Notes under the pieces: generated by a model
The model's input: the letters and a program-made list of their open reading frames with translations, nothing else
What the model was told of the DNA's origin: nothing
Database searches by the model: none
Made by a program: the position numbers and the translations under genes
In this document: in pieces, positions 4,182 to 52,594 of the stretch
How positions within the stretch are numbered: the first letter of the stretch is position 1
Layout of the letters: each line of letters starts with the position of its first letter
DNA from: Ignavibacteria bacterium
GTDB lineage: Bacteria; Bacteroidota; Ignavibacteria; Kapaibacteriales; UBA961
Direction: 5' to 3'
Length of the DNA: 64,000 nucleotides
NCBI GenBank assembly: GCA_016873735.1
Contig: VGWD01000001.1
Coordinates: 186,001-250,000 of the forward strand

Positions 4182-7100
4182 TCAGCGATTGATGGTAAAG
4201 GGCTTTACTTCCGTGAATGGGCCTGCCATGATTCTACAGAAATAATTGCCATTTGGCAATGCATCACTTGGAATAGCAAGGCGATATTCGCCCGGTTCCA
4301 ATATTTCATCAACTGCCAATGAGACGCGCTCACCAAGAGAGTTATAGATTTCAACTGTGGTGGCTACTTTGAATCCGATGCTATAGTCAATGGAAATATT
4401 GCCTGATTGCAATGGATTCGGTGAAACTCCTTTCAATGAGAATGCACTACTTCCAAATGAAATGAGTCGACCATTGATGAAACATGCATCCAATGAAACT
4501 GTTCCGGGCTTTGTTTTAATTGGTGTACAAAGAGAACGATCTCTGGTTGTAGCATCAGTGATGTCAATCATATATGTTGCTGAATCACTCATCAATATCT
4601 TGAAATCACCATTGATGAAATCACCATTGGTTGGATTGGTTGTTCCACTTGCAGTGATTGCAAGACCATCCTTTCCTTCAGTTGCGGTTATTGTCCAATT
4701 TGGAAGACCCGGCCCCGCCTTGATTGAACCTGTTTCATAAGCCATCATGTCTGAATCATAGTGAAGCTTCATGTCGATGGAGCGCACTTGAGTTACAGGC
4801 CATTTTGATTGATCCTGTATGCTGCCTTTCACGGAAATAGTCTTGACTGTTCCGGCTTTTACTTTATTCATCGCACTTGGTGATACTTCAAGCAAAATCT
4901 CAACAGAGATTCCGACGCCTATTAATTCAATAAAATCAGTACGGATATTACCTTGAGCATCTTTGAGATTTGTTGGAGTGATAAGTACGTCTGCCTTATA
5001 TGGTCTTGCTGCATCCGGTGAGAATGTCACGCCAACGATGTAAGAACCACCGGGCTTAATGGTGATCGGATATGTTTGTGGATCCAAAGTGAATGAACCC
5101 GCATCTGCACCGATCATCTGCATGTCACCAATGATCAAATCATCAGTTCCCGGATTTGTGATGGTGGATGTCAATCGCTTGTCATCGCAGAAAATCACAT
5201 TTCCATAATCTATAGGGGTAACTTTCATATCCGGATAACGGGTTTCTATGCCTGTTCCGATTACATCTACATTCGCGATGATTCTCGGATCTTCAATTGT
5301 TCTTGTTCCCGGGGTAGCATCATTGTTGATGTCAACAGCGGTTATTCTTTGACCAATATCAGTTGGTTTGAATTTTACGGGGATTTGCAATTCTCCACTA
5401 ATAGGGATAGAAACATTTGATGGCAATGTTGCGGGAGAATCCCATTCAAAATCGGAGGCATTTGGTCCGCTTGCACTAAAGTCCATGGACTCAATAAACA
5501 ATGGAGCACTTGTGCTTGTATTCTTGATAATCACTACGCCATTGTTTGCAGAATAACTTCCAACCAAAACCGGGTTTTGGAATATATATCCTGTTGCTTG
5601 AATTTTAGGTAGAAAACCATATCCTTTTAGTGTTCCTGTTGCAGAACCTGCATTATTTGCACTCGCCGTGATGGTTGTCGTATGATCAAATTCACTTGTG
5701 GGTTCATATTCAATCTGAATTGTGACTTTATCACCATTATTTCTCAAAATGAATGGTGCCGCATCACTTACAGGAGGATTGACATTGATGATTCTGAAAT
5801 TAGGATTTGCCGGTGTTGCAAGTTCTACTTTCGCGACATTCGCAGGAGCAGATCCTGAATTCGTCACATAGACTTCCTTCACCAATACTGTTCCCTGACG
5901 ACGTTTGCCCCAGTCTTGATCGGTAATGATCAATCCGGGTTGAATTCCAGTACCATACCATGTTGAATTTGGAGAACAGTCATCACCATAAGAATCTGAC
6001 TCGAATACGGCGATGATCGTATCTGATTTCTCTTGTGTCGGGTTGAAACAGATTGAATTGAAAAATACATTCGCCTTCGGTGCGATCTTGAATGGGAATG
6101 CAGGATTTGAAGGTGATGAAACGGTGAATGGCAGGCTTACGCCTTTGATGCCTGTAATTGTAAGTGTATCTGTACCTGTATTCGAAATTCTCAAACCAAC
6201 AGATGCATTGTCATCCTTGCATACTTTTTGATTTATTGGCACTCTGCCTGCATTCCATTGAGGTTCAACAGCAATGCAAGGGCGAACGCCTTGTCCTTTC
6301 AAAGGCCATTTGAATTCAGCACATTCGGTTTTTGCAAGTAATGAATCGATATCGAATGTTTTTTCATCCGGCATTTCTCTGATTGGCGTATAAGTTATCT
6401 TCACATCACGACTTTCACCGGCTTTCAAAGGCGTGGTATCAGCGCTTATGAGTGTAAACTCTTTGCCGAATCTTGTTTTGATTTCTTTAAGCTTTATTTC
6501 ATTCGTGCTTTCATTCTTGAGTTGAACCGTCATTTCTTTGGTTGTGCCCAAACGGACACGGCCAAACTCTACTGGATCAGGGTTCAAAGCGAGTTTATCG
6601 ACTGTATAGCGAACGCTGTCGATCGTATAATTTCCTGCACGATCCATCACGACGAAAATCGCGAATGCATCTTTGGTTTTATCCAATACCTTGAACTTGA
6701 ATTGAAACTCTTTCACTTTTGGATCAACCACGATTCGATCTGCAGTGATGAATACCAAAGCATAATTCGTTGAAACAGAGTCTATCATTTCAATCGAGGA
6801 AATACCTTGATCAATTTGTGCTGTGTCCGGTGGTGGCCCAAAAGAGCGCACCTCAGTTGCAGTATATGTGAAATCTCCACAGTCCTCTTCAAATGTGAGA
6901 ACAGGAGGCAAGGTATCAATTTCATCCAATTTTCTGATGGCCATCGCTGCCGGCCAACCATAGGAGTCGAAAGAGCTGAATCCATAAATATAGCCGCCAA
7001 ATCTTGTCTGGCTTGTCACTCTATGTGGACCCGGCATAACATTTACATTCTGCCAATAAAGGTTGGTTCCCGGTATGCGATTCGACAAAAATGTAGGTTG

Positions 7101-8447
7101 TCGAATCCAAATAGGCTTGCCATCCAATATTACTGACTTGAGTTTTTTCTGTTCTGCATCGGTTGAATCTCCCTCTGCAACAACATTAAACCAATTGGTG
7201 CTAAATGCGCTGTTTGCAGGGGATTGAAAAACCGTTGCTTGAATATATTGCTCTTGTGGTGTGACGATGATCATGAATGGATCGAATATATTACCCATAT
7301 CCCAATTGGCGGAATATGAATACTGCATGACCAAAATCGGTTTGTCTGCTTCCCAAACTGAAGTGCCTCGAAATCCTTCAACCAATCCACGACCTACATA
7401 CTGATCGAAATCCTCGAAAAATTCACCGGCATTGAGAATACCTTCTCTTTGCCCAAGAAGGTCGCCACTGACTTTGTCATAGTATTTCATTTTCCAGCGT
7501 GTCTGATTCTGCGATGCAATGATTCTGAAAAAATCGCCTTTATTGTCACGCTTATATTCAACGGTTGCATAACGCTTGCCCCATGCTTGCACTGGCGGGA
7601 GCATTTCCACTATATGGTCTCGGCCATTTACATTTGTTGCAGGTATCATCACACGTTCTACATATGAAACCAGACCAATTGGTTTATTGGATGTAATTTT
7701 TGAACCCGACATGTCGAATACACCACGTGTGGATGCTTCGCCTTTCACATTGAAGATTTGCCCTTTCATCAATGTTTCTTTGATGGTCTTTCCAAGGCGA
7801 TTTCCTTTTACTGTTTTTGCACCTGCATTAGATGCTCCCCTGCCTCGCAGAAGAATGGAAATTTCAGTGTCATCCTCAGAGGCAATCACGGTGAAGCCTG
7901 TAGCCCATCTGCGAGCTTCATTGAAGTCATAATAACTGAGATGAATATACTCGGTTCCCCAAACACTTGTGGGTAATGCAAGAAATCCCTCGGAAGTCAC
8001 CGGCTTTGCATTCAATACATAAACGGAAATTGGAGCATCCGCAAACACATGCACACCAATATCATCAGGCACTTCGCTGGATGTTACTTCCCATGCAGTG
8101 GAAACGGAACCGTCTCTTGTGCTAAATGTAACAACTTCGAGAGCACGCAATGCTTTTTTACGGCTAAACCCTTGGCCAGGTACTTCCAATGTAACAACGG
8201 TATTTGTGGAACCTGTCACATATATTTCAATGGCATTCAACGGTGCCTGAGCATTGTCATTCATTGGGATGGAAAACCAAAAGTCTTTCCCTTGAGCTGA
8301 ATTATTCAAGACAGCTTCTGGAGCAGGAAATTTCTTCGCCACTTCCGGAAAATTTTGTCTGTGTGATTGTGCTTGCAATCCAATTACATTCATTGCAATG
8401 GCAAGCAAACAGACGACAATTCGTACACTACTGTTCATTCTCATCAC
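4182..8447 (-). CDS. Large secreted protein: IgGFc-binding-like N-terminal region, choice-of-anchor (ASH/HYDIN-like) repeats, T9SS type A C-terminal domain
   Basis: Signal peptide; GKDFWFSIPMND... IgGFc_binding-like region; repeated 'DFGxVxxGxxxxxxVxxxNxG' modules (VEFGRVRLGTTKEMTVQLKNES; DYGNVIFCDDKRLTSTITNPGTDDL); C-terminus SPNPLQSGNISIDYSI...YFCRIMAGPFTEVKPFTINR. Confidence 0.8.
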   Translation of the reverse strand: MMRMNSSVRIVVCLLAIAMNVIGLQAQSHRQNFPEVAKKFPAPEAVLNNSAQGKDFWFSIPMNDNAQAPLNAIEIYVTGSTNTVVTLEVPGQGFSRKKALRALEVVTFSTRDGSVSTAWEVTSSEVPDDIGVHVFADAPISVYVLNAKPVTSEGFLALPTSVWGTEYIHLSYYDFNEARRWATGFTVIASEDDTEISILLRGRGASNAGAKTVKGNRLGKTIKETLMKGQIFNVKGEASTRGVFDMSGSKITSNKPIGLVSYVERVMIPATNVNGRDHIVEMLPPVQAWGKRYATVEYKRDNKGDFFRIIASQNQTRWKMKYYDKVSGDLLGQREGILNAGEFFEDFDQYVGRGLVEGFRGTSVWEADKPILVMQYSYSANWDMGNIFDPFMIIVTPQEQYIQATVFQSPANSAFSTNWFNVVAEGDSTDAEQKKLKSVILDGKPIWIRQPTFLSNRIPGTNLYWQNVNVMPGPHRVTSQTRFGGYIYGFSSFDSYGWPAAMAIRKLDEIDTLPPVLTFEEDCGDFTYTATEVRSFGPPPDTAQIDQGISSIEMIDSVSTNYALVFITADRIVVDPKVKEFQFKFKVLDKTKDAFAIFVVMDRAGNYTIDSVRYTVDKLALNPDPVEFGRVRLGTTKEMTVQLKNESTNEIKLKEIKTRFGKEFTLISADTTPLKAGESRDVKITYTPIREMPDEKTFDIDSLLAKTECAEFKWPLKGQGVRPCIAVEPQWNAGRVPINQKVCKDDNASVGLRISNTGTDTLTITGIKGVSLPFTVSSPSNPAFPFKIAPKANVFFNSICFNPTQEKSDTIIAVFESDSYGDDCSPNSTWYGTGIQPGLIITDQDWGKRRQGTVLVKEVYVTNSGSAPANVAKVELATPANPNFRIINVNPPVSDAAPFILRNNGDKVTIQIEYEPTSEFDHTTTITASANNAGSATGTLKGYGFLPKIQATGYIFQNPVLVGSYSANNGVVIIKNTSTSAPLFIESMDFSASGPNASDFEWDSPATLPSNVSIPISGELQIPVKFKPTDIGQRITAVDINNDATPGTRTIEDPRIIANVDVIGTGIETRYPDMKVTPIDYGNVIFCDDKRLTSTITNPGTDDLIIGDMQMIGADAGSFTLDPQTYPITIKPGGSYIVGVTFSPDAARPYKADVLITPTNLKDAQGNIRTDFIELIGVGISVEILLEVSPSAMNKVKAGTVKTISVKGSIQDQSKWPVTQVRSIDMKLHYDSDMMAYETGSIKAGPGLPNWTITATEGKDGLAITASGTTNPTNGDFINGDFKILMSDSATYMIDITDATTRDRSLCTPIKTKPGTVSLDACFINGRLISFGSSAFSLKGVSPNPLQSGNISIDYSIGFKVATTVEIYNSLGERVSLAVDEILEPGEYRLAIPSDALPNGNYFCRIMAGPFTEVKPFTINR

Positions 8448-10212: not shown

Positions 10213-11166
10213 TTAATCCAGCATATGCAATGCTTGATGCAATCCGGCCTCATGTGCTTGTTGGGTTACATTCACATAACGCTGAGCTATGGATGGTGAA
10301 ACTATGCGCATCCTTTGCATGATATGTTCAATGTCTTTTCCTGCCAATGCCATGATACATCCGGCGGTATGACGCAAAGAATAAGGAGACAATACCTTTT
10401 GTCGCTCTGGAGATATGCCCGATTTTCTCATTCTCTTTTGAAAAGCATCGCGCAATCCTCGAACACTCATCCTTAGGCCTAATGAGCGATTACTCAAACT
10501 ATGAAAAAGCGGGGCATCCTGGATCATGACTTCAGGGAATCGCTTGTGCAAATAGCTCGACAAAGCTTCTTTTGCAAAATGAGAAAGTTTCACTTCGCAT
10601 TGTTTTTCACTGATTGTCTCGGGCAGCTTGATCAACGCATTTATGGATAGTGTTCGAGTATCGGCAATTGTCAAGCTTAACAATTCCTGTTCTTTCAACA
10701 TTGATCCAAGCATGAATGAAAATAATGCTCTATCACGCAATCCATGCATACTTTGCATATCCATTGAATCAAAAAACATCACTAATTCATCACTAGAGAA
10801 AAATGATGGAATTACAGAGATTGGATTGGATTGTGCGTGAACAAGCTTCGCGGGATTTCGAGGAAGAACTTTCGCTTCCACCAGATATTGCGAGAATCTT
10901 CTCAATGATGTGAGATATGTCGCAATGGAAGGAGGTTTCAATTGCTTTATTTCTATAAGATGAGCTTTGTACCGTTCAAAATCTTTGATGCGGAATTTGA
11001 ATTTTCTATCCTGCATCACAAATGACAAAAAACATCGTAAAGAACGGGAATAGGTATCAGCTGTATGGGATGATGCGGATTTACGAATATTGGATTCAAA
11101 TACTGAAATGTGCTCAGCGAGAATGGCATTTCTAATTGTGACGGGTTGATACATGTCATTGATCAT
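10213..11166 (-). CDS. Tyrosine recombinase/phage integrase-family protein with atypical active site
   Basis: N-terminal SAM-like fold (HTADTYSRSLRCFLSFV) and catalytic-domain pattern (RDRALFSFMLGSMLKEQELLSLT, SPYSLRHTAG, IAQRYVNV). Confidence 0.8.
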   Translation of the reverse strand: MINDMYQPVTIRNAILAEHISVFESNIRKSASSHTADTYSRSLRCFLSFVMQDRKFKFRIKDFERYKAHLIEIKQLKPPSIATYLTSLRRFSQYLVEAKVLPRNPAKLVHAQSNPISVIPSFFSSDELVMFFDSMDMQSMHGLRDRALFSFMLGSMLKEQELLSLTIADTRTLSINALIKLPETISEKQCEVKLSHFAKEALSSYLHKRFPEVMIQDAPLFHSLSNRSLGLRMSVRGLRDAFQKRMRKSGISPERQKVLSPYSLRHTAGCIMALAGKDIEHIMQRMRIVSPSIAQRYVNVTQQAHEAGLHQALHMLD

Positions 11167-11185: not shown

Positions 11186-12505
11186 CTATTTGCCAATAAT
11201 GATCACTTCGGTTCGACGATTCAATCGTCTGCCAAATTCAGTTGTATTGCTTGCGATGGGCTTAGAATCTCCAAAGCCGGCAGATTCCAATCGTTTAGGA
11301 TCTATGCCTTTCTTTTTGAGATATTGTCTAACCGCTTCTGCACGCAACATGGAGAGTTTGCGATTCAGTGACTTGCTTCCACGAGAGTCTGTATGTCCTT
11401 CTATGCGAACGGATACTTTGGGCCTATTCAGAAGAAATTCACGCAAGATTTCCAATTCATAGACCGAATCTGGAAGTGTTGAACTATTTGTTTGAAAAAG
11501 AAGATTCTCGATGATGAGCTTTCTACCTAATTCCACGATAGGTATGATTTTCCGTACAATTTCTCTTTTTTCTTGATCAACTATGCCAACGCTCAATGAA
11601 TCAGGTATCGCGGATTTATCAGAACGATAAGTAATCGCAAACAAATTGGTAAGCTGAGTGGAATAATCATCAAGGATTGTTGCAAATGGAGTTGAGATAT
11701 CAAACATTGAACCACGAGTACCCTCTGTCAATGTTCGATAGTCCTGCAAAACGGGAGGAACAATAGTGAATAATCTGATCGAATTATCCTTCAATGTTTG
11801 AATGATGGACTCTGTCGTTTGCAATGTCCTTCCCTGTCCACGCTCACCCTTCTGATGATACGGTGCATCAGTAATGATGATTGCAACTTTGTTCGCGGCC
11901 GGTCTGAATTTCATTTTCGACATATCAGACAATGCTTCGAGCGCATTTTCTTTGTCATCTCCGCCACCTGTTGCCCAAACGCCGGTGAGCCATTTGCCGA
12001 AATCTTTTACATTGTCTGTAGGGTTATATACTTTTTCTACGACATCAGAAAACAGAACAAGCCCAACTCGATAATCAATACCTTTTGCGGAAACATTCCC
12101 GACAAACTTTTCGATATTATTTCTAATTGCATTGATATATGTTCCCATTGTGGCAGTAACATCAAGCACAAACACGAAATCTATTGGAATATTCTCTTTG
12201 AAAGAAATCTTCTCGATTGAAATCACTTTCTTTGTGACCCCATTTTCAACCACTGAAAATTCTTTTGGATTCAATGTGTCCAATGCGGTCCCATTTGCCT
12301 TTACCGCTTCAACAATCAATTTCACTTCAGGAAATTTCGTGATGTCTATGTTCTGAATAGCCATCCGAATATGTCCCTGACCCATTTTCAAGCGCGCGGA
12401 CTCTGCTGCTTGTTTTGCTTGAGCTTTGACAGAATCTGTTTGGGCATACAAGCATGTTGCAGAAATCAACAGGAAGATTGTAAGAATGGTGGTGAAGAGA
12501 TTCAT
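11186..12505 (-). CDS. VWA domain - OmpA-family peptidoglycan-binding fusion protein
   Basis: VWA (DFVFVLDVTATMGTYI) plus C-terminal OmpA motif (IEGHTDSRGSKSLNRKLSMLRAEAVRQYL...NRRTEVIIIGK). The track ORF start (12547) lies inside a terminator hairpin; MNLFTTILTIFLLISATCLYAQ (12505) is the likely start. Confidence 0.88.
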   Translation of the reverse strand: MNLFTTILTIFLLISATCLYAQTDSVKAQAKQAAESARLKMGQGHIRMAIQNIDITKFPEVKLIVEAVKANGTALDTLNPKEFSVVENGVTKKVISIEKISFKENIPIDFVFVLDVTATMGTYINAIRNNIEKFVGNVSAKGIDYRVGLVLFSDVVEKVYNPTDNVKDFGKWLTGVWATGGGDDKENALEALSDMSKMKFRPAANKVAIIITDAPYHQKGERGQGRTLQTTESIIQTLKDNSIRLFTIVPPVLQDYRTLTEGTRGSMFDISTPFATILDDYSTQLTNLFAITYRSDKSAIPDSLSVGIVDQEKREIVRKIIPIVELGRKLIIENLLFQTNSSTLPDSVYELEILREFLLNRPKVSVRIEGHTDSRGSKSLNRKLSMLRAEAVRQYLKKKGIDPKRLESAGFGDSKPIASNTTEFGRRLNRRTEVIIIGK

Positions 12506-12527
12506 AATCTTGGTCTTACAAAAGAAA

Positions 12528-12559
12528 CCCCCTGACAAGATAAACATCTGGGCAGGGGG
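12528..12559 (-). terminator. Rho-independent terminator-like hairpin downstream of the 12582-13979 CDS
   Basis: ccccctg...cagggggg-type inverted repeat; on the minus strand GGGGG is followed by TTTCTTTTG. Confidence 0.65.
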
Positions 12560-12581
12560 AACACTGTTTTGAGCATGTGTC

Positions 12582-13979
12582 TTAAATATTAAGACGCAAT
12601 ACAGGTGAAATCATAAATACTGACTGATCGAATTGTCTTGATTCGCTACGCAATGGAATAGAGTAACGAGCATCCAAATACAACCATTCTCCCAGCAATG
12701 GAAGATAGAGTCTTCCAAGAAATATCTGATTTGAATATTGAGCACTCAACCCAAATGGAAATGTTGATTGATTGCGATATTCAACTTTTGCATACAGCCA
12801 ATCCAAAAATTCAGTTGGATGGAAGAATGTTAAACCATCGACTTTGTCATTCAATGCAAATGGACCTGTATCATTTCCAAGACGGTTGATTGCAACTTCA
12901 CGAACTTCGGTATAATTGATACCCAAATCAAAGCGCACATAATTTTCCGGATTCTCGGGGTCGAGCCACCAATTATAGAATAAACCAGTATTACCTGTGA
13001 TTCTCAACAATGGCGCAACCACTAAAGGGTCACGTGGACTGGCCGGATTACTCTTGAAATATGCTGCATAGGTAGCACGCTCAATTGTCTTGAGTGTATC
13101 TATACCTTGCAATGGCACCTCAACATGAAATGTGATACCAAAGTTTGGTTCAAAGGGGGCATGAAAATCAAAACCAAAGATTCCTTTTCCGCCATATGCT
13201 GCATTCAATCTACGTTGCGGCAAGAAATTGAGCATGCCATTGGACGTATCTTGCATGCGATATCCCATACCGATATGAAAATGCAATAAATTTGGAATGG
13301 CCTTGCGTGTTGCGATATCTTCATTGACATACAAAGGATGTTGAACCATCACTTTTGCTTCGCCGGATGAGATGAAAGGCAATCCTGCACCTTCGGTACC
13401 AATCACGGAACGAATCCAATATCCATCTTCTTTCCCGATTTTAAGCGTTTGCTCAAAAGCAGACAATGAATATGAATGTGTGGTATTTGTTGGCATTTCA
13501 AGATAATTTGTGATTGCTTCGATTTGTGCTTGTGATGGAGCAGAAGCAACGGGAACATCTTGATAGCAATATGGTCTTTTGGGATTAATTAACGTTGACA
13601 AAAGTGTTTTCAACTTGGAATCAACTTGATCCGCAGTCATCTTTTCTTTTCCGCATTCAATCAGAAGAATATTATAATCGGGATTCTTCGGATCTTTGAT
13701 CGGAGCTGAAGTGATGAGAATGGTTCTCATGTCCAGATTTTCTGCCGGCCTTCCGTCCAACTTGAATACCTGGAAAATCTGCAATTGCAAATTCGGCTCG
13801 CAAACACTCCAGCGGGGAAAATAGGGCAATAAGCCGGGGTCGACGGACTTCAAACTTGCCAATGCAAGTGAATCACTCGTCTGGGCTTGTGCGGTCATAA
13901 CTCCAAATCCGCTCATCGAAATGATGCATAGGAGGAAGAAATGCAAGTAACGTTGTTTTATCATGGTTTTCATCACCAT
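12582..13979 (-). CDS. Secreted/outer-membrane protein of unknown function (probable beta-barrel C-terminal half)
   Basis: Signal peptide, barrel-like alternating strands (YVRFDLGINYTEVREVAI, LYLDARYSIPLRSESRQF), C-terminal ...SPVLRLNI. Confidence 0.55.
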   Translation of the reverse strand: MVMKTMIKQRYLHFFLLCIISMSGFGVMTAQAQTSDSLALASLKSVDPGLLPYFPRWSVCEPNLQLQIFQVFKLDGRPAENLDMRTILITSAPIKDPKNPDYNILLIECGKEKMTADQVDSKLKTLLSTLINPKRPYCYQDVPVASAPSQAQIEAITNYLEMPTNTTHSYSLSAFEQTLKIGKEDGYWIRSVIGTEGAGLPFISSGEAKVMVQHPLYVNEDIATRKAIPNLLHFHIGMGYRMQDTSNGMLNFLPQRRLNAAYGGKGIFGFDFHAPFEPNFGITFHVEVPLQGIDTLKTIERATYAAYFKSNPASPRDPLVVAPLLRITGNTGLFYNWWLDPENPENYVRFDLGINYTEVREVAINRLGNDTGPFALNDKVDGLTFFHPTEFLDWLYAKVEYRNQSTFPFGLSAQYSNQIFLGRLYLPLLGEWLYLDARYSIPLRSESRQFDQSVFMISPVLRLNI

Positions 13980-14041
13980 TTATATCAAGTAATGTTCAAA
14001 TCAAATGTTATCGACACTATGCCGATGCATTTCATGCTGAA

Positions 14042-15835
14042 TTAGAAATTAAACAGCATTTGTAATGATGGAAGAACGATTGTTTGCTCTTCCCATGGTT
14101 TTGGATCGCGAAGTGCAGTCTGGAAATATTGTGCTTGGAAACGCAAATCGAATCCATTCACAACAGGAACCTGTGCCCACACATCACCAGAAACGCAACC
14201 ATCAAAGAATTGCATGGATGCACCCCAAGGCACAGTGCGAGATCTATTCATGAATTCTACACGACCTGAAAGTCCGGCAACTACTTCTGAACCCTTAATT
14301 CCGCTCATCGCTGCAACTTTCAATTGATCAAAGCGATTGAGAATTGCCAAATCTTCATAGGAATATTGATCCACTTGACGATTCTTCTTTTCATAAACAG
14401 GACGACCATTGTTGTCATTGCCATTCTGTTGTTCCAATTCAGCAAAACGTTGAATAACATACATCGTAGCTCCAAGTTTGAATCGGAAAAACGCTGTTCT
14501 GTCGATGTCTACTGCAAATGAATAATGCGCCTGAGCATGGAAACGTGGCAAATAACTTAAATCAAGATTTCTGTATGATGCCGAATCGGATGTTCCGCTT
14601 GTATTACGACCTGAAAACATGAACTGAGTCGCAACGGGATTAACTGCTGCCGGACCAAATACATAGCTTCCATTGAAATTGAACACACCACCTTGATTAA
14701 GAAGCTTGATTGGGAAATCAAGTGATCCATAAATACCAAGACCTGCATTTGTCAATTTACGTTGTGCGCTAAACACATCGGTTGCCAATGAAGACCAACC
14801 ATTTGTAGGAAGAATGATGCCAAATTTGTTGGATTGCCACATGACATTGAGTGTCATGCGCTCACTCCACAATGATGGATAATTGATCTCAGGCATTCCA
14901 TAGCGAAGCTCAACTCCATATAATGGAAGATGCTTATTATAAATTCGCTTTACCGTGGAATCACCTTCACCTTCTTCAGGAATGAGATTACCCTCTTCAT
15001 CGAATTCTTCAAGTTTTCCATAATGACGGAAACGAATCAAATCGAATAATCCAATCGTCAATTCATTGGGAGCATTATATTCTTGGGGTTGTCCATCAGT
15101 GATGCGAAGATATTGTTGTATATCATCTTCATTGATTGGATATGTTGTGCCATATTTCTGTGGAAGAAATGTAGCATCTGCTCCAATTCCTTGAGCTTCA
15201 GCAGTGATGTTTTCAGCATCATTCTGAAGAATTTTTCTTTCAAGGTATTCATAGAGCGTTTTGGCTATACCGAGTGTATCGGGCGAGCTTACTTTTTGCA
15301 AATCATTTGCAAGGAAAATACCCTTTGGTGGATCAATGATCTCATCAATCTTGGCAACCATTTCTTTATTGCCGGATGTGAGCAAGCCGATGATTTCAAA
15401 TGGTTCACCTACTCTGAATCGAGTGGTCACCACATAGGCTCGGCTGAAGAGTTCGTCCTGCCATTTTGTATAGAGACGATAGTATTTTTCATATTCTCTA
15501 TCGTCATTGTTCATGTTGCCACCACCATTATTCTTCAAGAAGAGTGCAACATCTGCCTCACCTTCATCAATGGCTTCTTGAATAGCATCCTTTTTCTTGG
15601 ATCTATTGGCAGCAGCATTGGCTTTTGGCTCAGGTACGCCCAATAAGGGATTGATTGCCGTTACGGTTGGGTCATCAACCTGAAACAGGAATACATTAGA
15701 GTATCTATAACTCTTGAATTTTCCGAGGATTGATCGGATCTGTGCAGTTTGTTGCGCTTGCATTTGCACTGCAGCAAAGACCATCAGGCAAAGCATGGGA
15801 AGTACTGCCATTGGTCGAACAAATCTTGAACTCAT
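14042..15835 (-). CDS. Outer-membrane beta-barrel protein of unknown function
   Basis: Signal peptide (MAVLPMLCLMVFAAVQMQAQ); many amphipathic beta strands; C-terminal aromatic residue (LPSLQMLFNF). Confidence 0.6.
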   Translation of the reverse strand: MSSRFVRPMAVLPMLCLMVFAAVQMQAQQTAQIRSILGKFKSYRYSNVFLFQVDDPTVTAINPLLGVPEPKANAAANRSKKKDAIQEAIDEGEADVALFLKNNGGGNMNNDDREYEKYYRLYTKWQDELFSRAYVVTTRFRVGEPFEIIGLLTSGNKEMVAKIDEIIDPPKGIFLANDLQKVSSPDTLGIAKTLYEYLERKILQNDAENITAEAQGIGADATFLPQKYGTTYPINEDDIQQYLRITDGQPQEYNAPNELTIGLFDLIRFRHYGKLEEFDEEGNLIPEEGEGDSTVKRIYNKHLPLYGVELRYGMPEINYPSLWSERMTLNVMWQSNKFGIILPTNGWSSLATDVFSAQRKLTNAGLGIYGSLDFPIKLLNQGGVFNFNGSYVFGPAAVNPVATQFMFSGRNTSGTSDSASYRNLDLSYLPRFHAQAHYSFAVDIDRTAFFRFKLGATMYVIQRFAELEQQNGNDNNGRPVYEKKNRQVDQYSYEDLAILNRFDQLKVAAMSGIKGSEVVAGLSGRVEFMNRSRTVPWGASMQFFDGCVSGDVWAQVPVVNGFDLRFQAQYFQTALRDPKPWEEQTIVLPSLQMLFNF

Positions 15836-15879
15836 TATCTGCTTTCTCCGGGATTACGTGGGGGATAGCATGAAAAAAA

Positions 15880-18078
15880 TTAAAATACGATGTTAAACTT
15901 GCAAGACTTCGTCGCATCAGGAGATGTTTCTCCACTCGGCAATTGCGCAGCAGCCTTGGCTTGTATCTTGATAGAACCTCCGGTTCCACGTGGTATTGGA
16001 AGCTTACCATCGAGTCTGTAACTCTGGGTCCACTTTCCGCTCGTGAGCTTTGGCTCACCAACAGTCACCACTTTATAACCTTTGATATTTTGTTCCTTCA
16101 CTTCGAACTTCACACCTTTGATGGTTGCAATGATATCTGGATATGTCGGTGCTTTGATTTCAACATTCACGAAGAATATCGGTGTCTTGGCATCCGTAAT
16201 GCGAGATGCATCACCGCAGACAACTCTCGGACGCTTCGGACCTGGTTGTACTTCAACCGCATTCGAGCCATCAGTTGGGAATATCTGTACTTGAATTGAC
16301 TGATCTTTTGGATCTTGCCAAACGATGCGGACACTAACTCGGTCTGCATCAATCGGAATATTGTATCCATCATTTGCTCCGACTTGCAAGCCGATGACAG
16401 GTGATTTCTTTGTCGTTCCATCTATGATGGTTCTGAACTGACTACCCGGAATCGTGCTTCCTGAAGTTGGAACGGCGGTGAATTCAACCGCATCACCTTT
16501 GGCCAAAAACTTTACCAACCCGCTGATTTCTTCTTCATTTTTCACATCATCGCCCTCTTCAGTTTTGACGGTAGCCAAACCTGTAGAGAAAATTTTCAAA
16601 TTCATTTCTTCAACGACTGTCTTGCCTGCTGAAGACAATGAAGCTGTCATTTTATATTCGCCTGGTGATAAATCACGATTGACTTCAACTTTGTAACGAC
16701 CTGCTTTTCCATTTGTGCTCGTTGGGCCTACTTTGGTTATGCTCACTCCTGATGTAGAACCATTGAATTGAATGGTTGGAGTTGCTTTGTCATATAGGTT
16801 GGCTACGAATGTTGCAACGTATTTACCGGCTTTGTCGAATGAATACAATTGACCATTATCATCCCATGTGATGATGGGATCTTCTTGCTCAATCTCAGGT
16901 TGCTGAACAAAGATGTCAATCTCAATGCTACCCTTGTTCTGGTCAAATGTGGTATATCTACCTGGTGATAGAAGTTTTGCGATATAACCGAACAAATCAA
17001 TTCGGCTGGTATTCTGCGCTACTTTTTCTCCACCACCATCAATGACTTTCTTCTTTGCTGATTCCAATTGATCATTAAATTTATCAAGATCCAATGAACC
17101 TTTGGCAAATGCATCAGCTGAAGGAATACCTGTTCCGGATAATTGATCTGATAATTGGCGCTGAACGCTTCTCAAATCCTTAACCTTCAATTGAACGGTA
17201 CCAATATTTACTTTTTGATCATCTTTCAAGGAATTAAATTTCTGCTCTGCAGAAATACCCATGATTCGATTCGTCTGTGAACTAAAACGCAATTTATACC
17301 AACCCGGTTTGCTCGGTGGTTGGAAATTGCAGACAAATGCTCTCTTTGTCAATTTGCCATTATTCGATTGACGAAGTCTATCGGTTTTTTCTTCTGAATA
17401 GCCAAATATACGATTCACTCTCGCAGAATCAGGTGGAGCAAATTGAGCTATATCACCTGCTTTCACGGATGATTCACCATAAAATGGTTCTTTGAAATTC
17501 TTCATGGATTTTGTGCTCAATTCCAATTTGCGCGTTGCCTGCAATTCCCAGGTTTCAGTGGACGTTGCATTTGGCGGATTCGCAAGTCTCATCCCCGATT
17601 GTGGGGATGATTGTACTTTCTTGAACTCTGATGCAGGTGGTGAAGGTGGCACATCCACTTCTTTACTTGGATGAAAATACACCTCATACTGCAATTCCTG
17701 AACATTCGCGAGTTTTTTGAGTGTCTCTATTTTTTCTTTTTTCTGCGCATCATCCAGTCCATCCATATTCATAGCAGATGCAACATCTGTAACTCCAACT
17801 TCGATATAGTAAGTGCGGAATTTCTTGAAATACTTTCTTTGCTCTTCTGGGAGTTTTTCTGACAAAACAATGGCATCCTGAGGTCTCGTATTGATACCCT
17901 CGGTTCCGGCACCCGACTGCAACTGCGTCAGAATACTCTCAACGATACGCATTGATTCCTGCTGCTTTTTAACTAGATGCTCCTCAGCTTCATCGCGTTC
18001 AACGATGATGATAAGAAGTTCCAGAATAACTGCAAGATAGAGAACGAAATAAACCTTTCCGGCTCCGCCTTTTGACAT
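15880..18078 (-). CDS. GldM/PorM-like periplasmic protein with one N-terminal TM (tentative)
   Basis: MSKGGAGKVYFVLYLAVILELLIIIVERDEAEE...: short cytosolic tail, one TM, helical segment, then several Ig-like beta-rich segments, resembling GldM architecture. Start corrected from 18123 to 18078. Confidence 0.45.
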   Translation of the reverse strand: MSKGGAGKVYFVLYLAVILELLIIIVERDEAEEHLVKKQQESMRIVESILTQLQSGAGTEGINTRPQDAIVLSEKLPEEQRKYFKKFRTYYIEVGVTDVASAMNMDGLDDAQKKEKIETLKKLANVQELQYEVYFHPSKEVDVPPSPPASEFKKVQSSPQSGMRLANPPNATSTETWELQATRKLELSTKSMKNFKEPFYGESSVKAGDIAQFAPPDSARVNRIFGYSEEKTDRLRQSNNGKLTKRAFVCNFQPPSKPGWYKLRFSSQTNRIMGISAEQKFNSLKDDQKVNIGTVQLKVKDLRSVQRQLSDQLSGTGIPSADAFAKGSLDLDKFNDQLESAKKKVIDGGGEKVAQNTSRIDLFGYIAKLLSPGRYTTFDQNKGSIEIDIFVQQPEIEQEDPIITWDDNGQLYSFDKAGKYVATFVANLYDKATPTIQFNGSTSGVSITKVGPTSTNGKAGRYKVEVNRDLSPGEYKMTASLSSAGKTVVEEMNLKIFSTGLATVKTEEGDDVKNEEEISGLVKFLAKGDAVEFTAVPTSGSTIPGSQFRTIIDGTTKKSPVIGLQVGANDGYNIPIDADRVSVRIVWQDPKDQSIQVQIFPTDGSNAVEVQPGPKRPRVVCGDASRITDAKTPIFFVNVEIKAPTYPDIIATIKGVKFEVKEQNIKGYKVVTVGEPKLTSGKWTQSYRLDGKLPIPRGTGGSIKIQAKAAAQLPSGETSPDATKSCKFNIVF

Positions 18079-18270: not shown

Positions 18271-18504
18271 TTAGTTTTTGGGTGCTACTTCTTTTTTTGT
18301 AATGTCAGCTGAAGATTTGGAGCAATTGTCGCCCTTTGCTTCTTTTGAACTCATCTTCTTTTTGCAGCAAGCCATTCCATTTTCTTTAGAAGCTTCTTTT
18401 GCACATTCTGCCTTTGATTTTGTACCGCAATCAGCAGTCATCATTACAGGCGCTGCGATGAACGCACTCAATACAAATGCCATGATCATGTTTTTGGCTC
18501 TCAT
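18271..18504 (-). CDS. Small exported Lys/Cys-rich protein
   Basis: 77 aa; signal peptide MRAKNMIMAFVLSAFIAAPVMMTA then DCGTKSKAECAKEASKENGMACCKKK...; five Cys. Confidence 0.5.
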   Translation of the reverse strand: MRAKNMIMAFVLSAFIAAPVMMTADCGTKSKAECAKEASKENGMACCKKKMSSKEAKGDNCSKSSADITKKEVAPKN

Positions 18505-29267: not shown

Positions 29268-30086
29268 TTATTTGAGCATTCCTGAATTTTGTGGTGCAGG
29301 TGTTTCATTAGCTTTTTGAGCAGCTGCACGCTTCTTTTTCCAGTACGCACGTTCGGCTTTCATTTCATCCGAAGTTTTGGGCGCGGATGCAGGAAGCATC
29401 AATTTTTGACCCGGGAAAATCACATCAGGATTGCGAATGATCTCTGTATTGGCTTGCCATACTTTTGGCCATAATAATGCATCATTGTAGATTTCTGCTT
29501 TACCGGCAATATTCCACAAACAGTCGCGATCATCGACCCATGTACCAACAACATAATCTTTGGTTGGTTTAGATCTGTATAGCGAGCGGATATCACGAGC
29601 CAACTCAGTTATGCGATTGAAATATGGCGGATTTAATGAGATTCTCTCAGAACGTAATTTGTTCAATTCTGTTTCAAGAAATCTCAATTCTTCTTGGCGC
29701 TCAATCAACTGAGCTTCATTAAGACCTTTAATGGAACGAACTTTTCCTTCCAATACTCCAAGACGTTGCGCAAACTCTTCAAGTTGCTTTTGTGTTGCAT
29801 TGAGTAATGCCAGAATATCCTCATTGTTTTTTTGAATGCTGGCATTGGTGGAAGTGAGCGACTGATTCAACGTCGCAATTGATGAGACCAAACCTGCATG
29901 ACGGTCTTTGAGGTCTTTTACACGCTGCTCCCATTCTTTGATGCAAATATCACCTTGATCTTTGGTGAATGGCTTCGCCTTCATTTGTGCTTCTGAAGCA
30001 TTGCAGTCAGGAGGTGCTTCTTGTGAAAAAGCAGTTTGACCAAATGCTAGCATGATGAGTAAATACATATAAATGACATGTTTCAT
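29268..30086 (-). CDS. Exported coiled-coil protein with LysM-like C-terminal domain
   Basis: Signal peptide; coiled coil; WNIAGKAEIYNDALLWPKVWQANTEIIRNPDVIFPGQKLMLP is LysM-like. Confidence 0.78.
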   Translation of the reverse strand: MKHVIYMYLLIMLAFGQTAFSQEAPPDCNASEAQMKAKPFTKDQGDICIKEWEQRVKDLKDRHAGLVSSIATLNQSLTSTNASIQKNNEDILALLNATQKQLEEFAQRLGVLEGKVRSIKGLNEAQLIERQEELRFLETELNKLRSERISLNPPYFNRITELARDIRSLYRSKPTKDYVVGTWVDDRDCLWNIAGKAEIYNDALLWPKVWQANTEIIRNPDVIFPGQKLMLPASAPKTSDEMKAERAYWKKKRAAAQKANETPAPQNSGMLK

Positions 30087-44567: not shown

Positions 44568-46475
44568 TTATTTCGTGATGATCATCGGACGCATGATAGT
44601 CATTCCGTCGATCTTTATCACCACTGAATAGTATCCCTGTGGTTCACCTGACAAGTCAAGTGCTATTTTATAACGACCTTGATCTTGTGGTGCATTGAGA
44701 ATAGTACGAATCAATGTACCATCTTGAGCGTAAATTTCAATTGAAACATTTCCATAAGTACCTACTTCATATGCAAGAACTGTGTGTCCATTGCTAGGGT
44801 TTGGCATTAATTCGGAAACGGGTGAATCCATATCACCATAATTGATGAACACATTTGTTTCATCAACAGTCGTATTGACTGAATCACACTTTGTCCGGTA
44901 AGTAATTGTATTTATCTCAACTTTGCCATTCACAGGCATGAACACTTTGATAGTGCGTAGTGTATCACAAACTCCTCTGCAAGGCGGAACGGGAACTCGT
45001 ATGACGCAGCATCTATCATTAATCACTTCACGAGTCAATTGTTGATAAACTGAGTCCAAAGATGCAGATGAATATACTTCAAATGTTTTCCCTCTTGTCA
45101 ATCGAGCCAATTCTTTCAAATCTGCCAGACCTGCCTGATCGAGTGGGTCTTCTTTATTCAAACCAAATGCTATGGAATATATCGGCAGTGGATTGATGGT
45201 GTCTTCTTTTATTTTCCTGACAACAGCATTAAAGTCCGGAAATCGATTATTTCCTCCATCGCTTAAAAGAATTATCGCTCTATTAGGATTCGGATGTTTT
45301 TTAATGGAATCGATAGCACGAATAACTGCTTCATTCATGGCTGTGAAATCGGATGGAATCAATTTATCGATGGCATCTTTAAGCAAGAATTTATTATTTG
45401 TCCATGTTTGATCAACCTTGCTAGTATCGGAAAATGAAATGATCATAGCCTCATCTTTTGGCCCCAAACGATCAACGAATTCCTTACTTGCAGTTTTGGC
45501 CGCCTCGATTCGTATCCTGCTATCTGTGGGGCTGATAAAATCCATCATGCTTCCCGATCTATCGAGTACCATTGCCAGGGCAACTCCTTTTTCTTTCTTT
45601 TGATCGCATGATATAGAGTCAGGACACAAGAAAAATGAACTGTCGACTATCGAATTATTGCTATCTAATCCACAACCTACTTTGTGAAAAATCGCCAAAT
45701 CATTAGCACTTTCAAGAATATTCTTTCTTCCCGATACTGCATTTGAATCCTTTACAAACACACCGACTGTGACGTCCAAAGCTATAAGCTCACCAAGAGG
45801 ATTATAAATACCTACGGGCTTTTCACAAAATTGTATCACGGATTCTTCGATTGTCACTGTCAATTCATCCACATTGTCTGAATATCCGGGTATGAGTCTC
45901 TCCAGAGTCAAACTTTCAATCGAATCAAGGATATTGAACTTGAATGGATTGCCCGTACCAGGAATTTGGAATGTGTATGTATGATTGGTTTCAAATGATC
46001 CTGCATATCTTGGATTCAGAGGTTGCCCATCCAAACGGAACCCCAAATGTTTGAATGCATTGATACGAGTCCTTACATTCTTGCGCAAATTTGGGATCGT
46101 ATTCATTTGCGTATTGGTTGGATAACTATTTGTATCAGAATATGGAAGCTGTAGTACATAAATTGGATATGTGTCATTTCCATTCACAAATGTCATAAAG
46201 GGCCAAACCGAATGAGATACATTAGGACTTACTGAGTAAATACCCCAAGCATCTCCCATGACTTTTGATGTATTGCCGGTGAATGAAAAAGAGCCAGTAA
46301 CTGTAATTGTGTATAATGAACCAGGATCAGTATTGAATGTTGTTTTTACGATTTCGGGTGAATTTGCCTTGACAGTCATAACTTCCTTGACTGATTTGCC
46401 CGGTTGAGCCGTCACATAAGTCTGCATGAACCCCAGCAAACAGAAGACGATAGATAGTATGTGATTTCTTTTCAT
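44568..46475 (-). CDS. Secreted VWA-domain protein, type A (copy A1), T9SS C-terminus
   Basis: Signal peptide; YTITVTGSFSF; MIDAS AMVLDRSGSM; CCVIRVPVPPC...TITYRTKC; C-terminal LMPNPSNGHTVLAYEVGTYGNVSIEIYAQDG. Start corrected from 46514. Confidence 0.82.
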   Translation of the reverse strand: MKRNHILSIVFCLLGFMQTYVTAQPGKSVKEVMTVKANSPEIVKTTFNTDPGSLYTITVTGSFSFTGNTSKVMGDAWGIYSVSPNVSHSVWPFMTFVNGNDTYPIYVLQLPYSDTNSYPTNTQMNTIPNLRKNVRTRINAFKHLGFRLDGQPLNPRYAGSFETNHTYTFQIPGTGNPFKFNILDSIESLTLERLIPGYSDNVDELTVTIEESVIQFCEKPVGIYNPLGELIALDVTVGVFVKDSNAVSGRKNILESANDLAIFHKVGCGLDSNNSIVDSSFFLCPDSISCDQKKEKGVALAMVLDRSGSMMDFISPTDSRIRIEAAKTASKEFVDRLGPKDEAMIISFSDTSKVDQTWTNNKFLLKDAIDKLIPSDFTAMNEAVIRAIDSIKKHPNPNRAIILLSDGGNNRFPDFNAVVRKIKEDTINPLPIYSIAFGLNKEDPLDQAGLADLKELARLTRGKTFEVYSSASLDSVYQQLTREVINDRCCVIRVPVPPCRGVCDTLRTIKVFMPVNGKVEINTITYRTKCDSVNTTVDETNVFINYGDMDSPVSELMPNPSNGHTVLAYEVGTYGNVSIEIYAQDGTLIRTILNAPQDQGRYKIALDLSGEPQGYYSVVIKIDGMTIMRPMIITK

Positions 46476-46519
46476 AGTTGTTCTCTCATAAGAATATTGT
46501 GTAGTGTTCAGCATGACCC

Positions 46520-48460
46520 TTACTCCTGAATGATTATTTCATGCTGTTTGATCATGTTCCCTTTTGCGAACACTTTTGCTATATATTTACCTGTCGCAAG
46601 ACCATTTGTGCTTAATGTCACGCTATTTGATCCTTTTTTCAGGTTTTTGATATTCATATAATTGATCAGCTTTCCGGATGCATCATATAACTCAACGCGA
46701 ACTTGGGTCGAGCCGGATAATTGCAAAGGGAATGTTGTATTCAATTGCGCTGATTTTTTTCTCGCGGGAATGACTTTCGTATACAATTCTTCCCCGTTTT
46801 GTCTTTTACTGAGAAATGTCTTGGCGCAATTTGTTTTATATGTGGTAGCTCTGGCTGTAACACCACCCTCAAAAGGATAGTATATCACGATTGTTCGCAC
46901 TGTATCCCCACTGCCTTGCTCACAAGGAGCAACGGGATATTCAATTGAACAACATTCTTGCTCTCTGATATCTCTGCTAATCAATGCATATGTTGAATCC
47001 AGTGCTTTACTATTGGTGATCTGGAACACTCTACCGCCGGAAGCTACTGCGATACTGTCCATTTTTTTTAATCCCGCCAAATTATTTTCAACTCTTATAC
47101 TATCAATAAACTTCTCTGTTGGATCTGTTATTGTGGTGTCAATTCTGGTATCCATCCCGAGAGCCAAAATAAATATAGGGATATTGCGAGTGGCAGGCAG
47201 TTCATTGATCACAACCTGTGCATCAATTGGAGCAATATTATTTGCTCCATCGGTTAAGGCAACAATTGCTTTCAAACGATTATCATGACTTTTCGTTCTG
47301 GCAATGGCAGTGATCAATGCTTTATGCAATGCAGTTTGCAATACAGTGGTATTCAATCTTGCACTGAATGTATTGATGCTATTTTGCACGGTTTGTTTAT
47401 TTGGGGTCCAATTGACATCAACATTGATATCTGAAGTATCAGAGAAGGATAACATCAAAACGGAATCTCTAGAAGAAAGCCTGTTTAAAAAATTTGTTGC
47501 GGATTTTGTTGCAGCGTCAATTCTGGGTGTTTTATCATCTCTGCTCACAACATCCAACATGGAGGAAGTTCTGTCAAAAAGCATTGCAATGGATACCGAC
47601 TCAACCGATTTATTGCAACTTATGCTGTCAGGACAAACAAACTTTCCATTGTCATAAATGGCGATCTGATTTTTGTCAAACAAAATATTACGTTTTCCTG
47701 TTGCCTTATTGGTATCTGTAACAAACACTGAAACATCAACTTTGATACCTGTCATTTTTGTGGTATCATTCGGATCAAGTTGTGGTGCGGCTGAACAAAT
47801 ATTTACAAAGTATGGGATGATTTCTTCAATCAATACTTCGATTTCTCCAGAATTATTGTCATAATCACCTTTCAGCAAAGAATCGGCATTTGTATATACT
47901 GAATCAATGATTGCAAACGTTAATGAATTGCCGTCTCCTGCTCTTTCAAATTGATATTGATGATTGATAGGATCATATGCTGTTTTTGCTATTGGCTCAC
48001 CGTTTAATCTAAAGCCCGTCCACTTTTTCAAATTGAACTTATAATCGGGAAACACAAATAGTGGAAATGAATCATATGGGAATGACATGGTATCACCAAC
48101 CCACATTGGTAATTTGTATCCGGGATATGTATCACCGGAAAGTGTGTCGACATATTCCTCAGCAGGCCATTGATTGTTTGCTATTCTGGAAATAGGTGCA
48201 TCATACACATATCCTGCATCTATGCCATTGCCTAATTGTTCCGGCCAAATGGAAAATTCCCCTTTTAATGTGATTCTGTATCTCTTTCCTGAACGCAATT
48301 CTTCTGAAGCAATCGAAGAACCGGAATTTGCTTTGATCTTCAATAATTGCGGGAAATCTGCATGCAACTCTACACCACCAAGAATCACCAGAAGTAGTAG
48401 ATAGCGCATAAAGTGTGTTATAATAAACATCAATGTACCCTGTAAAAAATGTGTTTTCAT
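46520..48460 (-). CDS. Secreted VWA-domain protein, type B (copy B1), T9SS-like C-terminus
   Basis: MIDAS-like AMLFDRTSSM; FVCPDSISC; CCSIEYPVAPC...TTYKTNC; C-terminal QVRVELYDASGKLINYMN...TGKYIAKVF. The track start is 48472. Confidence 0.82.
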   Translation of the reverse strand: MKTHFLQGTLMFIITHFMRYLLLLVILGGVELHADFPQLLKIKANSGSSIASEELRSGKRYRITLKGEFSIWPEQLGNGIDAGYVYDAPISRIANNQWPAEEYVDTLSGDTYPGYKLPMWVGDTMSFPYDSFPLFVFPDYKFNLKKWTGFRLNGEPIAKTAYDPINHQYQFERAGDGNSLTFAIIDSVYTNADSLLKGDYDNNSGEIEVLIEEIIPYFVNICSAAPQLDPNDTTKMTGIKVDVSVFVTDTNKATGKRNILFDKNQIAIYDNGKFVCPDSISCNKSVESVSIAMLFDRTSSMLDVVSRDDKTPRIDAATKSATNFLNRLSSRDSVLMLSFSDTSDINVDVNWTPNKQTVQNSINTFSARLNTTVLQTALHKALITAIARTKSHDNRLKAIVALTDGANNIAPIDAQVVINELPATRNIPIFILALGMDTRIDTTITDPTEKFIDSIRVENNLAGLKKMDSIAVASGGRVFQITNSKALDSTYALISRDIREQECCSIEYPVAPCEQGSGDTVRTIVIYYPFEGGVTARATTYKTNCAKTFLSKRQNGEELYTKVIPARKKSAQLNTTFPLQLSGSTQVRVELYDASGKLINYMNIKNLKKGSNSVTLSTNGLATGKYIAKVFAKGNMIKQHEIIIQE

Positions 48461-48730
48461 ATAGCCTGTCATTGCAGGCCCCCATAAAATCTATCCATGT
48501 TGACCTCATACTCAGGGGGTGTTTGTAATCGGTACACATTAACTAATTCAAATATAGTGCCAATATGAATAACATGAATCATCATGGAAATAGTTCAAGC
48601 TATGTAACTATATTCATATCAATATGTTATAGACTTTTCAACATCTTTCTCGATACACATTCTAGCTATGTTTTGCACTGTAGATGTGTGTAAGTTATTT
48701 CACACTATTTTCTGTTGTGTGAAGGCAAAA

Positions 48731-48758
48731 AAAAAGCAGGTTTTTCAACCTGCTTTTT
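48731..48758 (-). terminator. Terminator hairpin downstream of VWA gene A2
   Basis: aaaaagcaggtt-tttc-aacctgcttttt (near-perfect stem, potentially bidirectional). Confidence 0.82.
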
Positions 48759-48761
48759 ATG

Positions 48762-50705: not shown

Positions 50706-52594
50706 TGTACTACCTCCACAGGAAGTTGATGAATCATTGTTCCATTCACTCTGATGACAGCTCTATAATAGCCCCTTTCTATTCCTTTGATTTTCAGTGG
50801 TATCTCTTGCTTGCCTGCCTTATGATTCTGTTTGTACACTTCCCCAATCAGGAGACCATTTGCATCATATAGTTCTATGACTACTTCGCCCTTGGCATGT
50901 TGAGGAATACTCAATGCAAATTGACTTGCATTCTTGATTTGAAGAATGCGAATCGGTTTCTGAATTGAAGAATATGTAGGATCAAGATCTCTCATGCGCA
51001 TACCTGCCAAAAGCTTTTTGCAAGGCGTTTTATAGGTGATGTCTTTTGTTTTCACAGATCCATTATCCATGAAATAGATCGTTGCAGTTCTCACGGTATC
51101 GGCTTTTGATGTATCACATGGGGCTATGTCTTTAAAGAAGACAGTACAACATTCTTCGCTTTTCACTTCCGTGCTTAATTGATCGTAAACCGCTGTGAGC
51201 TCGGCAGCATTTTGAACAGTAAAGAATTTCCCATTGGAACGTTTTGTGATTTCTTTCATATTTTCCAATGCTTCCGTGATTCCCGGCTCTTGTGGGTCAA
51301 ATCCCAAAGCAACAATGTAAATTGGAAGTGTCCCACTAGTTGAGATTGCATTATATACCGCCTGAACATCCGGTTCTATATTATTGACTCCATCGGTAAG
51401 TGCAATAATTGCTTTCTTTGTTGCAGTCTGTTTTTTTGTCTCATCAATTGCTTTAATCAATGCAGCATAAAATGCGGTTCTTCCATCGATCCTGCTATAG
51501 ATGCTATTGATTGTATTGACAGCAGTTGGATTTTGATTTTTCTTTGACCATGGCTTATCTATCGAAACACTATTTGCAAAGGAAATGATGCTGAGATTAT
51601 CCTCTTCGCTCAGTTTATTGACAAATGATATCCCGGCTTGTTTTGCTGCATCGGCTCTAATTTCTCCGGTATTTCGATTGATGTCAAAGAGCATGCTGCC
51701 GGATCTGTCAAACACCATTGACAATGCCAATGAACCCTTGATTTCACTTGAGCAAGAAATACTGTCCACGCAATAGAAAGTCCCCTTGTCATAGAGACCG
51801 ATTCTCTGAAACTCTCCTTCAGTGAGAAGATTTATCGGCTTGGAATTGGGATCAAATGCATTTTTCAACAATGCTATATTGATTTTCACGCCATTCATTT
51901 TTCCATTAGCGTCTGTAGTTGCTTCATGATTGCCACATTCATCCACATAGATTGAGTCAGGGCCGGTTTCTTCGATTCTCACGGTGAGATGACCCGCATT
52001 ATCAAGATATGCAGGCAATGTTCTTCCCGAGACCACACTGATGACTGAATCGAGGATTTGGAATGTGAGGGGTCTTCCCAAGCCAACTGTTACATAACTG
52101 TACACATTGTTTGCATTATATGCTTGCCTTGGCAACATCGGCGAACCATCGATTCTGAAGCCCATATGATTTCTGAAATCAAACTTGTACAGGGGAAACA
52201 GAATGCTGATGATTGGATTATTCGGAGGAAATATCTCCTGAGATCCAACCCAATGCGGCAATGGAAGAGAAATCACCGTATCAAGCGGATAAATGATATA
52301 CTGCTCTTCCGGCCATCGCATGGCTTCGATTTCGCTTTGCGGTGCATCATAAATATAATTTGCATCGACACCGACCGAATCAATGTTCGGCAACCACCTC
52401 CACATGGAATAAGTACCGGACACGGTGACTTTATACCGCACGCCGGGCCTTAACACGGAAGATTGAACGGGTTTCCCCGTAAATGACGGAACGCTAATGG
52501 TCTCGGGAAATTGAGCCGAGAGCATGGCGCTGTTGAAGAGGATTCCAAGACAACATAGGACTCGAATCCACAACCTGAGTTGGGTAGTTTTCAT
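50702..52594 (-). CDS. Secreted VWA-domain protein, type B (copy B2), T9SS-like C-terminus
   Basis: YKVTVSGTYSMWRW; MIDAS SMVFDRSGSM; FYCVDSISC; CCTVFFKDIAPC...ITYKTPC; C-terminal EVVIELYDANGLLIGEVYKQ. Confidence 0.82.
   Translation of the reverse strand: MKTTQLRLWIRVLCCLGILFNSAMLSAQFPETISVPSFTGKPVQSSVLRPGVRYKVTVSGTYSMWRWLPNIDSVGVDANYIYDAPQSEIEAMRWPEEQYIIYPLDTVISLPLPHWVGSQEIFPPNNPIISILFPLYKFDFRNHMGFRIDGSPMLPRQAYNANNVYSYVTVGLGRPLTFQILDSVISVVSGRTLPAYLDNAGHLTVRIEETGPDSIYVDECGNHEATTDANGKMNGVKINIALLKNAFDPNSKPINLLTEGEFQRIGLYDKGTFYCVDSISCSSEIKGSLALSMVFDRSGSMLFDINRNTGEIRADAAKQAGISFVNKLSEEDNLSIISFANSVSIDKPWSKKNQNPTAVNTINSIYSRIDGRTAFYAALIKAIDETKKQTATKKAIIALTDGVNNIEPDVQAVYNAISTSGTLPIYIVALGFDPQEPGITEALENMKEITKRSNGKFFTVQNAAELTAVYDQLSTEVKSEECCTVFFKDIAPCDTSKADTVRTATIYFMDNGSVKTKDITYKTPCKKLLAGMRMRDLDPTYSSIQKPIRILQIKNASQFALSIPQHAKGEVVIELYDANGLLIGEVYKQNHKAGKQEIPLKIKGIERGYYRAVIRVNGTMIHQLPVEVVQ

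Follow-up and report, generated by a model that had tools for sequence, protein, structure and literature searches.

Four neighbouring genes in an Ignavibacteria genome of 2.26 Mb (99.9% complete) raise the question which envelope machine they encode, and whether the first of them is a divergent form of GldM. The genes lie in a 64-kb stretch of DNA, which is referred to as the window in the following. A sequence-only reading of this stretch had taken them for a GldM-like protein, two outer-membrane proteins and a VWA-OmpA fusion, and had suggested that they form a noncanonical type IX secretion system (T9SS) or gliding module or another envelope-spanning machine.

A conserved, unannotated four-gene cluster

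The four genes, named M, O1, O2 and VWA-OmpA here, are consecutive open reading frames (ORFs) on the minus strand that span positions 11186-18078 of the window and are separated by only 44, 62 and 34 bases in that order, in agreement with the sequence-only reading. M (15880-18078, minus strand) encodes a protein of 732 aa with its N-terminus inside, a single hydrophobic transmembrane (TM) helix at residues 9-27 and tandem Ig-like periplasmic domains, and it is the proposed motor shaft discussed below. Its start is a conserved ATG, while the ORF caller picks an upstream TTG at 18123 instead. O1 (14042-15835, minus strand; 597 aa) and O2 (12582-13979, minus strand; 465 aa) encode exported proteins. 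O1 is composed of a periplasmic N-terminal part and a barrel-like C-terminal part, and O2 is its paralogue in the latter region (hhalign 99.2%, E 1.1e-19). Both proteins end in OMP-like C-termini, as had been proposed, and their C-terminal parts would therefore presumably be beta-barrel-like; neither protein has a relative in Pfam or in the PDB, both of which were searched. VWA-OmpA (11186-12547, minus strand; 453 aa) is the predicted fusion of a VWA domain (residues 123-263, E 1e-11) with an OmpA domain (residues 350-444, E 8e-19), in which the Asp/Arg pair D387/R402 is invariant in 12 sequences. O1, O2 and VWA-OmpA each carry one N-terminal hydrophobic segment, and VWA-OmpA may actually start only at Met 15. 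With its C-terminal peptidoglycan-binding OmpA domain, VWA-OmpA resembles PorE and other OmpA-family anchors of T9SSs and is proposed to be a peptidoglycan anchor. Unlike PorE, it carries a VWA domain in place of the other domains of that protein, and the PorE model NF052230 matches only the OmpA part, with a score far under the cut-off (63.6 vs 600 bits).

The search for orthologues of M was positive in 94 of 99 relatives, each a member of the genus, family or order. The order M-O1-O2-VWA is preserved in the same orientation and with mostly short gaps at loci L097, L098, L100, L101, L103-L106, L108, L033 and L034, and the order is found also at locus L109 of an outgroup family. The exceptions among the loci read were L099 without a match for VWA, L102 without a match for O2, and L107 with M only. 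As orthologues of M occur in nearly all of these relatives and the gene order with its short gaps recurs in most loci examined, the cluster is not a chance arrangement; it is real, conserved and unannotated. A small Cys-rich exported ORF of 77 aa (18271-18504, minus strand) lies 5' of M and is a possible further member of the cluster; small Cys-rich ORFs are situated 5' of M in relatives as well (81 aa in L034, 133 aa in L098, 117 aa in L103 and 114 aa in L104). A scan for promoters and terminators returned no more sites than were obtained in shuffled sequences. Directly 3' of the cluster lies a gene for a XerC/D-like tyrosine recombinase (10213-11166, minus strand), which is kept in the close relatives L033 and L034.

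Protein M compared with GldM and PorM

An alignment of 18 M sequences contains 103 invariant columns, 38 of which fall into residues 1-54 and 65 into the other 678 residues. Residues 1-54, comprising the cytoplasmic tail, the TM helix and the helix following it, are the most conserved part of M, and this invariance would fit a helix that is buried in a membrane complex. The AF2 model of M (pLDDT 84.5, pTM 0.50) consists of a single long N-terminal helix followed by beta-rich domains with short helical inserts. M thus shares with GldM and PorM the single N-terminal TM helix and the Ig-like periplasmic rod, so that the GldM-like architecture that had been claimed for it stands for these two features. 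The helical-bundle first periplasmic domain of the GldM type is absent from the AF2 model, a prediction only, which has one long helix at this place.

The assignment of M to the GldM family as a divergent member finds no support. Neither Pfam nor NCBIfam scans of M returned a family above cut-off, or a row for GldM. When the product of 15880-18078 was compared with profiles and structures of GldM/PorM, as the sequence-only reading had proposed, profile-profile alignment against 17 canonical GldM sequences by hhalign gave probabilities of 9.8% for the M proteins of the order and of 5.1% for the M-like proteins of the class, and a Foldseek search of the model against the PDB returned generic tandem-Ig proteins only, with GldM/PorM not among the top 50. 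Moreover, the GldM model TIGR03517 has no match in this genome. This model works elsewhere, being positive in 39 of 148 genomes of the phylum, and it matched none of the genomes of the class within this sample. Family models, profile-profile alignment and fold comparison being all negative, we do not assign M to the GldM/PorM family; M is GldM-like in its layout and not a GldM by the criteria tested.

L-like proteins as candidate partners of M

The sequence-only reading had also stated that no GldL-like gene adjoins the cluster, which is right for this locus, though three unannotated genes elsewhere in the genome encode proteins with a two-helix core, called L-like here (463 aa on contig C10, 353 aa on contig C25, and a frame of 290 aa on contig C13). 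Short M-like proteins occur in other orders of the class, where they follow a protein of 174-355 aa with such a core, and a profile of the latter (A3) detected L-like genes in 114 of 294 genomes of the class. The core reads GAAxLIIxxGxRGL...LExxML. Its G, R and E do not vary among 34 diverse sequences; the Glu lies in the last TM helix and the Arg at the end of the preceding helix. In 17 canonical GldL sequences the counterparts G16, K27 and E49 are invariant, E49 being essential for the motor (PMC8986121). L-like proteins thus have the two-helix core of GldL, in which a basic residue follows the first helix and the second contains an invariant Glu. The spacing from G to the basic residue is 11 in both families, and from there to the Glu it is 22 in GldL and 20 in the long L-like protein of this genome (20-22 among the forms compared). 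Alignment by hhalign places both cores in the expected register, with a probability of 44% for one small alignment and of 0.4-12% for larger ones; the local score of the TM core is 16.5 forward compared with 10.9 against a reversed profile, and reversed profiles do not align. The statistical support for homology of L-like proteins and GldL is therefore marginal at the level of sequence, and the GldL model finds no match in the L-like proteins of this genome.

The long and medium L-like proteins have two TM helices beyond the two-helix core, and the AF2 model of the long form (pLDDT 78.7, pTM 0.67) shows four TM helices, and its last helix is long and cytoplasmic. A Pfam search of the L-like proteins returned no MotA/ExbB match, and Foldseek gave no significant match to ExbB, MotA or GldL (ExbB 9ddo_B at rank 17, E 3); we therefore reject their classification as ExbB/MotA by fold. 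In comparison with the 5:2 motors MotAB, ExbBD and TolQR, the long L-like protein resembles MotA in its four TM helices, its large cytoplasmic part and its long last helix, and M resembles MotB and ExbD in combining a single TM helix with a periplasmic part. Both differ from these motors, the L-like proteins by the lack of a Pfam match to those families and of a significant fold match, and M by its tandem Ig-like domains, with the OmpA domain residing on a separate protein. The pair is laid out like GldLM/PorLM (TIGR03513, TIGR03517) as a two-protein inner-membrane unit: the two-helix core of L carries the invariant Glu in its last TM helix, and M has a single TM helix, with its N-terminus inside, and an Ig-like rod in the periplasm. 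A genome that encodes SprA, PorU and a PorV-family protein is a further shared feature. Unlike GldLM/PorLM, M lacks detectable homology to GldM, the long and medium L-like forms carry two extra TM helices, M lies beside O1, O2 and VWA-OmpA and not beside GldK and GldN, and the L-like and M genes are mostly unlinked in the order.

Linkage and co-occurrence connect the two proteins. An L-like gene is situated directly upstream of an M-like gene at five loci of other orders (L112-L116) and in f55 (L168). Within this order both genes are mostly unlinked, and the L-like genes of this genome are linked neither to the M of 15880-18078 nor to the PorU2-like gene described below. At locus L107, an L-like gene of 465 aa (E 2e-47 to the long form of this genome) precedes a full-length M of 755 aa by 100 bases, and this genome contains a second, shorter pair with an L-like gene directly upstream of an M-like gene (L152). 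Outside the order, all 15 class genomes with an M-like match have a strong L-like match, and none of the 20 listed without M does (Fisher p 3e-10, without correction for shared ancestry; matches with E > 0.003 were treated as noise).

Further genes were observed around L-like loci. At L112 (9000-16001) and L113 (8683-15778), a short L-M pair is followed by an exported protein of 366 aa and by further exported ORFs some 460-510 aa long; among the latter, one family is related to O1 (hhalign 85%). The family of exported 366-aa proteins in other lineages was considered as a split-off piece of M and rejected, as it shows no similarity. Two TPR proteins that have an adenylate/guanylate cyclase domain at the C-terminus are encoded in the window (59458-61518, minus strand) and at L150:9927-11747, the latter near an L-like gene. 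The second L-M pair has a gene for a BamG-like OMP upstream of it (L152:9519-10757; NF053685, 200 bits vs cut-off 250).

A candidate motor, its probable client and the alternatives

A published tool detects T9SSs by models for GldK/L/M/N together with SprA, PorU, PorV, PorQ, SprE and SprT, and reported the system in Bacteroidetes only (PMC4793230); it may occur in Ignavibacteriota (PMC11285876). This genome encodes SprA and PorU (770.8 bits vs cut-off 420). The gene after that for PorU belongs to the PorV family (271 bits vs cut-off 90 with the PorV/PorQ family model, 234.7 vs 250 with the PorV equivalog), and proteins with sorting tails are encoded in and near the window. The genome thus has the components by which we recognise a T9SS genome. 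A genome-wide search for canonical GldL, GldM and GldN, as the sequence-only reading had recommended, returned none over cut-off. The best GldL match (E 0.067) lies outside the L-like genes and is a chance match only, and GldN was absent from this genome and found over cut-off in none of 80 class genomes. A match of the GldL model at 29673-30005 was rejected, as the ORF at 29268-30086 is exported and lacks the two-helix core. The neighbours of M are O1, O2 and VWA-OmpA, and not gldL, gldK or gldN.

Large ORFs of similar size form a run at 44568-59191 on the minus strand (at 44568, 46520, 48762, 50702, 55428 and 57341); the three that were scanned have VWA domains and weak C-terminal matches to type IX sorting tails. 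The 1421-aa product of the ORF at 4182-8447 (minus strand) matches IgGFc-binding and HYDIN/ASH-like domains and, weakly, cohesin, and its sorting tail scores barely over the NCBIfam cut-off (24.0 vs 23 bits). The ORF at 61694-63997 (minus strand) likewise has a sorting tail barely over the NCBIfam cut-off, together with a match to the SprB repeat that stays under the threshold.

In 18 loci of the order, the long L-like gene adjoins a gene for a C25 protease on the same strand. The three of these proteases that were scanned are nearest to PorU2 or PorU in NCBIfam, at about 200-240 bits and below the cut-off, and the homologue in this genome (281 bits) is unlinked to any L-like gene. As PorU of this genome sits with the PorV-family gene, we read the L-linked protease as PorU2-like and reject it as PorU.

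The invariance of the TM end of M, the G/R/E core of the L-like proteins, and the adjacency and concordance of both argue for a motor. Our preferred reading, which we hold with slightly better than even confidence, is that M is the shaft of a GldLM-like motor driven by the proton motive force, with O1/O2 as its outer-membrane partners, VWA-OmpA as its peptidoglycan anchor and the T9SS or surface motility as its probable client. M would extend a short cytoplasmic tail, place its TM helix inside a ring of L-like proteins that are encoded elsewhere and span the periplasm with its Ig-like rod. Proton flow through this ring, using the invariant TM Glu and Arg, would turn or bend M and so carry movement to the outer membrane at O1/O2, while VWA-OmpA would hold the outer-membrane part to the peptidoglycan. 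Proton use, the ring stoichiometry, the contact of M with O1/O2 and the client are features that we infer. The most likely client would be the T9SS of the lineage, either for export or for cell-surface movement of its cargo, because the long L-like gene lies beside the PorU2-like gene in so many loci and because SprA, PorU, the PorV-family protein and sorting tails occur without a match for GldL, GldM or GldN. The proposal of a noncanonical T9SS or envelope machine is thus strengthened by these components and by L-like partners of a type linked to a PorU2-like gene in relatives, and a T9SS role of the cluster, being linkage-based, is likely but unproven. We count against this reading that M lacks detectable GldM homology, that O1/O2 likewise show none to a known family, that the match of L-like proteins to GldL is weak and that they have no significant fold match, as well as the mismatch in distribution of SprA and L-like genes, the missing linkage of L-like genes to M or to the PorU2-like gene in this genome, and the below-cut-off, PorU2-like nature of the L-linked protease.

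The main weakness of the T9SS client is the distribution of SprA. This protein is present in 292 of 294 class genomes and, being nearly universal, useless as a discriminating T9SS marker; compared with L-like genes in 114 of the 294, many SprA-bearing relatives either do without the pair or have it beyond detection. The L/M-type proteins might hence form a proton-driven trans-envelope machine outside the T9SS, for instance a Tol/Ton-like coupler serving outer-membrane stability, outer-membrane protein assembly or uptake via O1/O2, for which the position of the second L-M pair downstream of the BamG-like gene and the ExbB/MotA-type four-TM layout of the long L-like protein would also speak. That the long L-like gene recurs beside a PorU2-like gene, that a genome without recognisable GldL, GldM and GldN has SprA, PorU and a PorV-family protein, and that the cluster contains no uptake genes all count against this explanation, which is rather unlikely, though it deserves serious consideration. 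We regard it as improbable that M and the L-like proteins are true GldM and GldL orthologues of a diverged T9SS core that have passed beyond sequence detection: the same topology, the order of L before M where both are linked and the similar spacing of key residues would be expected of such orthologues, but the negative hhalign comparison of M with GldM, the marginal alignment of the TM cores, the missing helical-bundle domain and the extra TM helices of the long and medium L-like forms stand against it. A passive envelope scaffold or adhesin complex without a motor is very improbable. Structural and adhesive proteins often contain Ig-like rods, VWA and OmpA domains, which would speak for it, but the extreme conservation lies at the TM end of M and not in the rod, and M co-occurs strictly with a membrane protein that bears invariant charged TM residues.

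Going beyond the motor reading, it is conceivable, and we propose it only tentatively, that the T9SS or surface motility of this clade is driven by a distinct family of motors, which by sequence belongs neither to GldLM nor to MotAB. Its parts would be a MotA-like ring protein with four TM helices and a core in the style of GldL, a shaft made of the Ig-like rod, a pair of outer-membrane barrels, and VWA-OmpA as the anchor. No description of the L-like/M pair was found in the literature searched, to which subscription papers and preprints did not belong. T9SS detection leans on models for GldK/L/M/N, while in this class SprA is nearly universal, GldM was absent from the genomes sampled and GldN was found in 0 of 80. 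Should the missing motor be the L-like/M pair, it would explain how these T9SSs are energised and would supply four uncharacterised genes for testing. It would furthermore add a four-TM relative to the GldLM motor, which was described to be without obvious sequence homology to MotAB (PMC9389320), and a distinct motor family, if true, could show how the two-TM GldL relates to the four-TM MotA.
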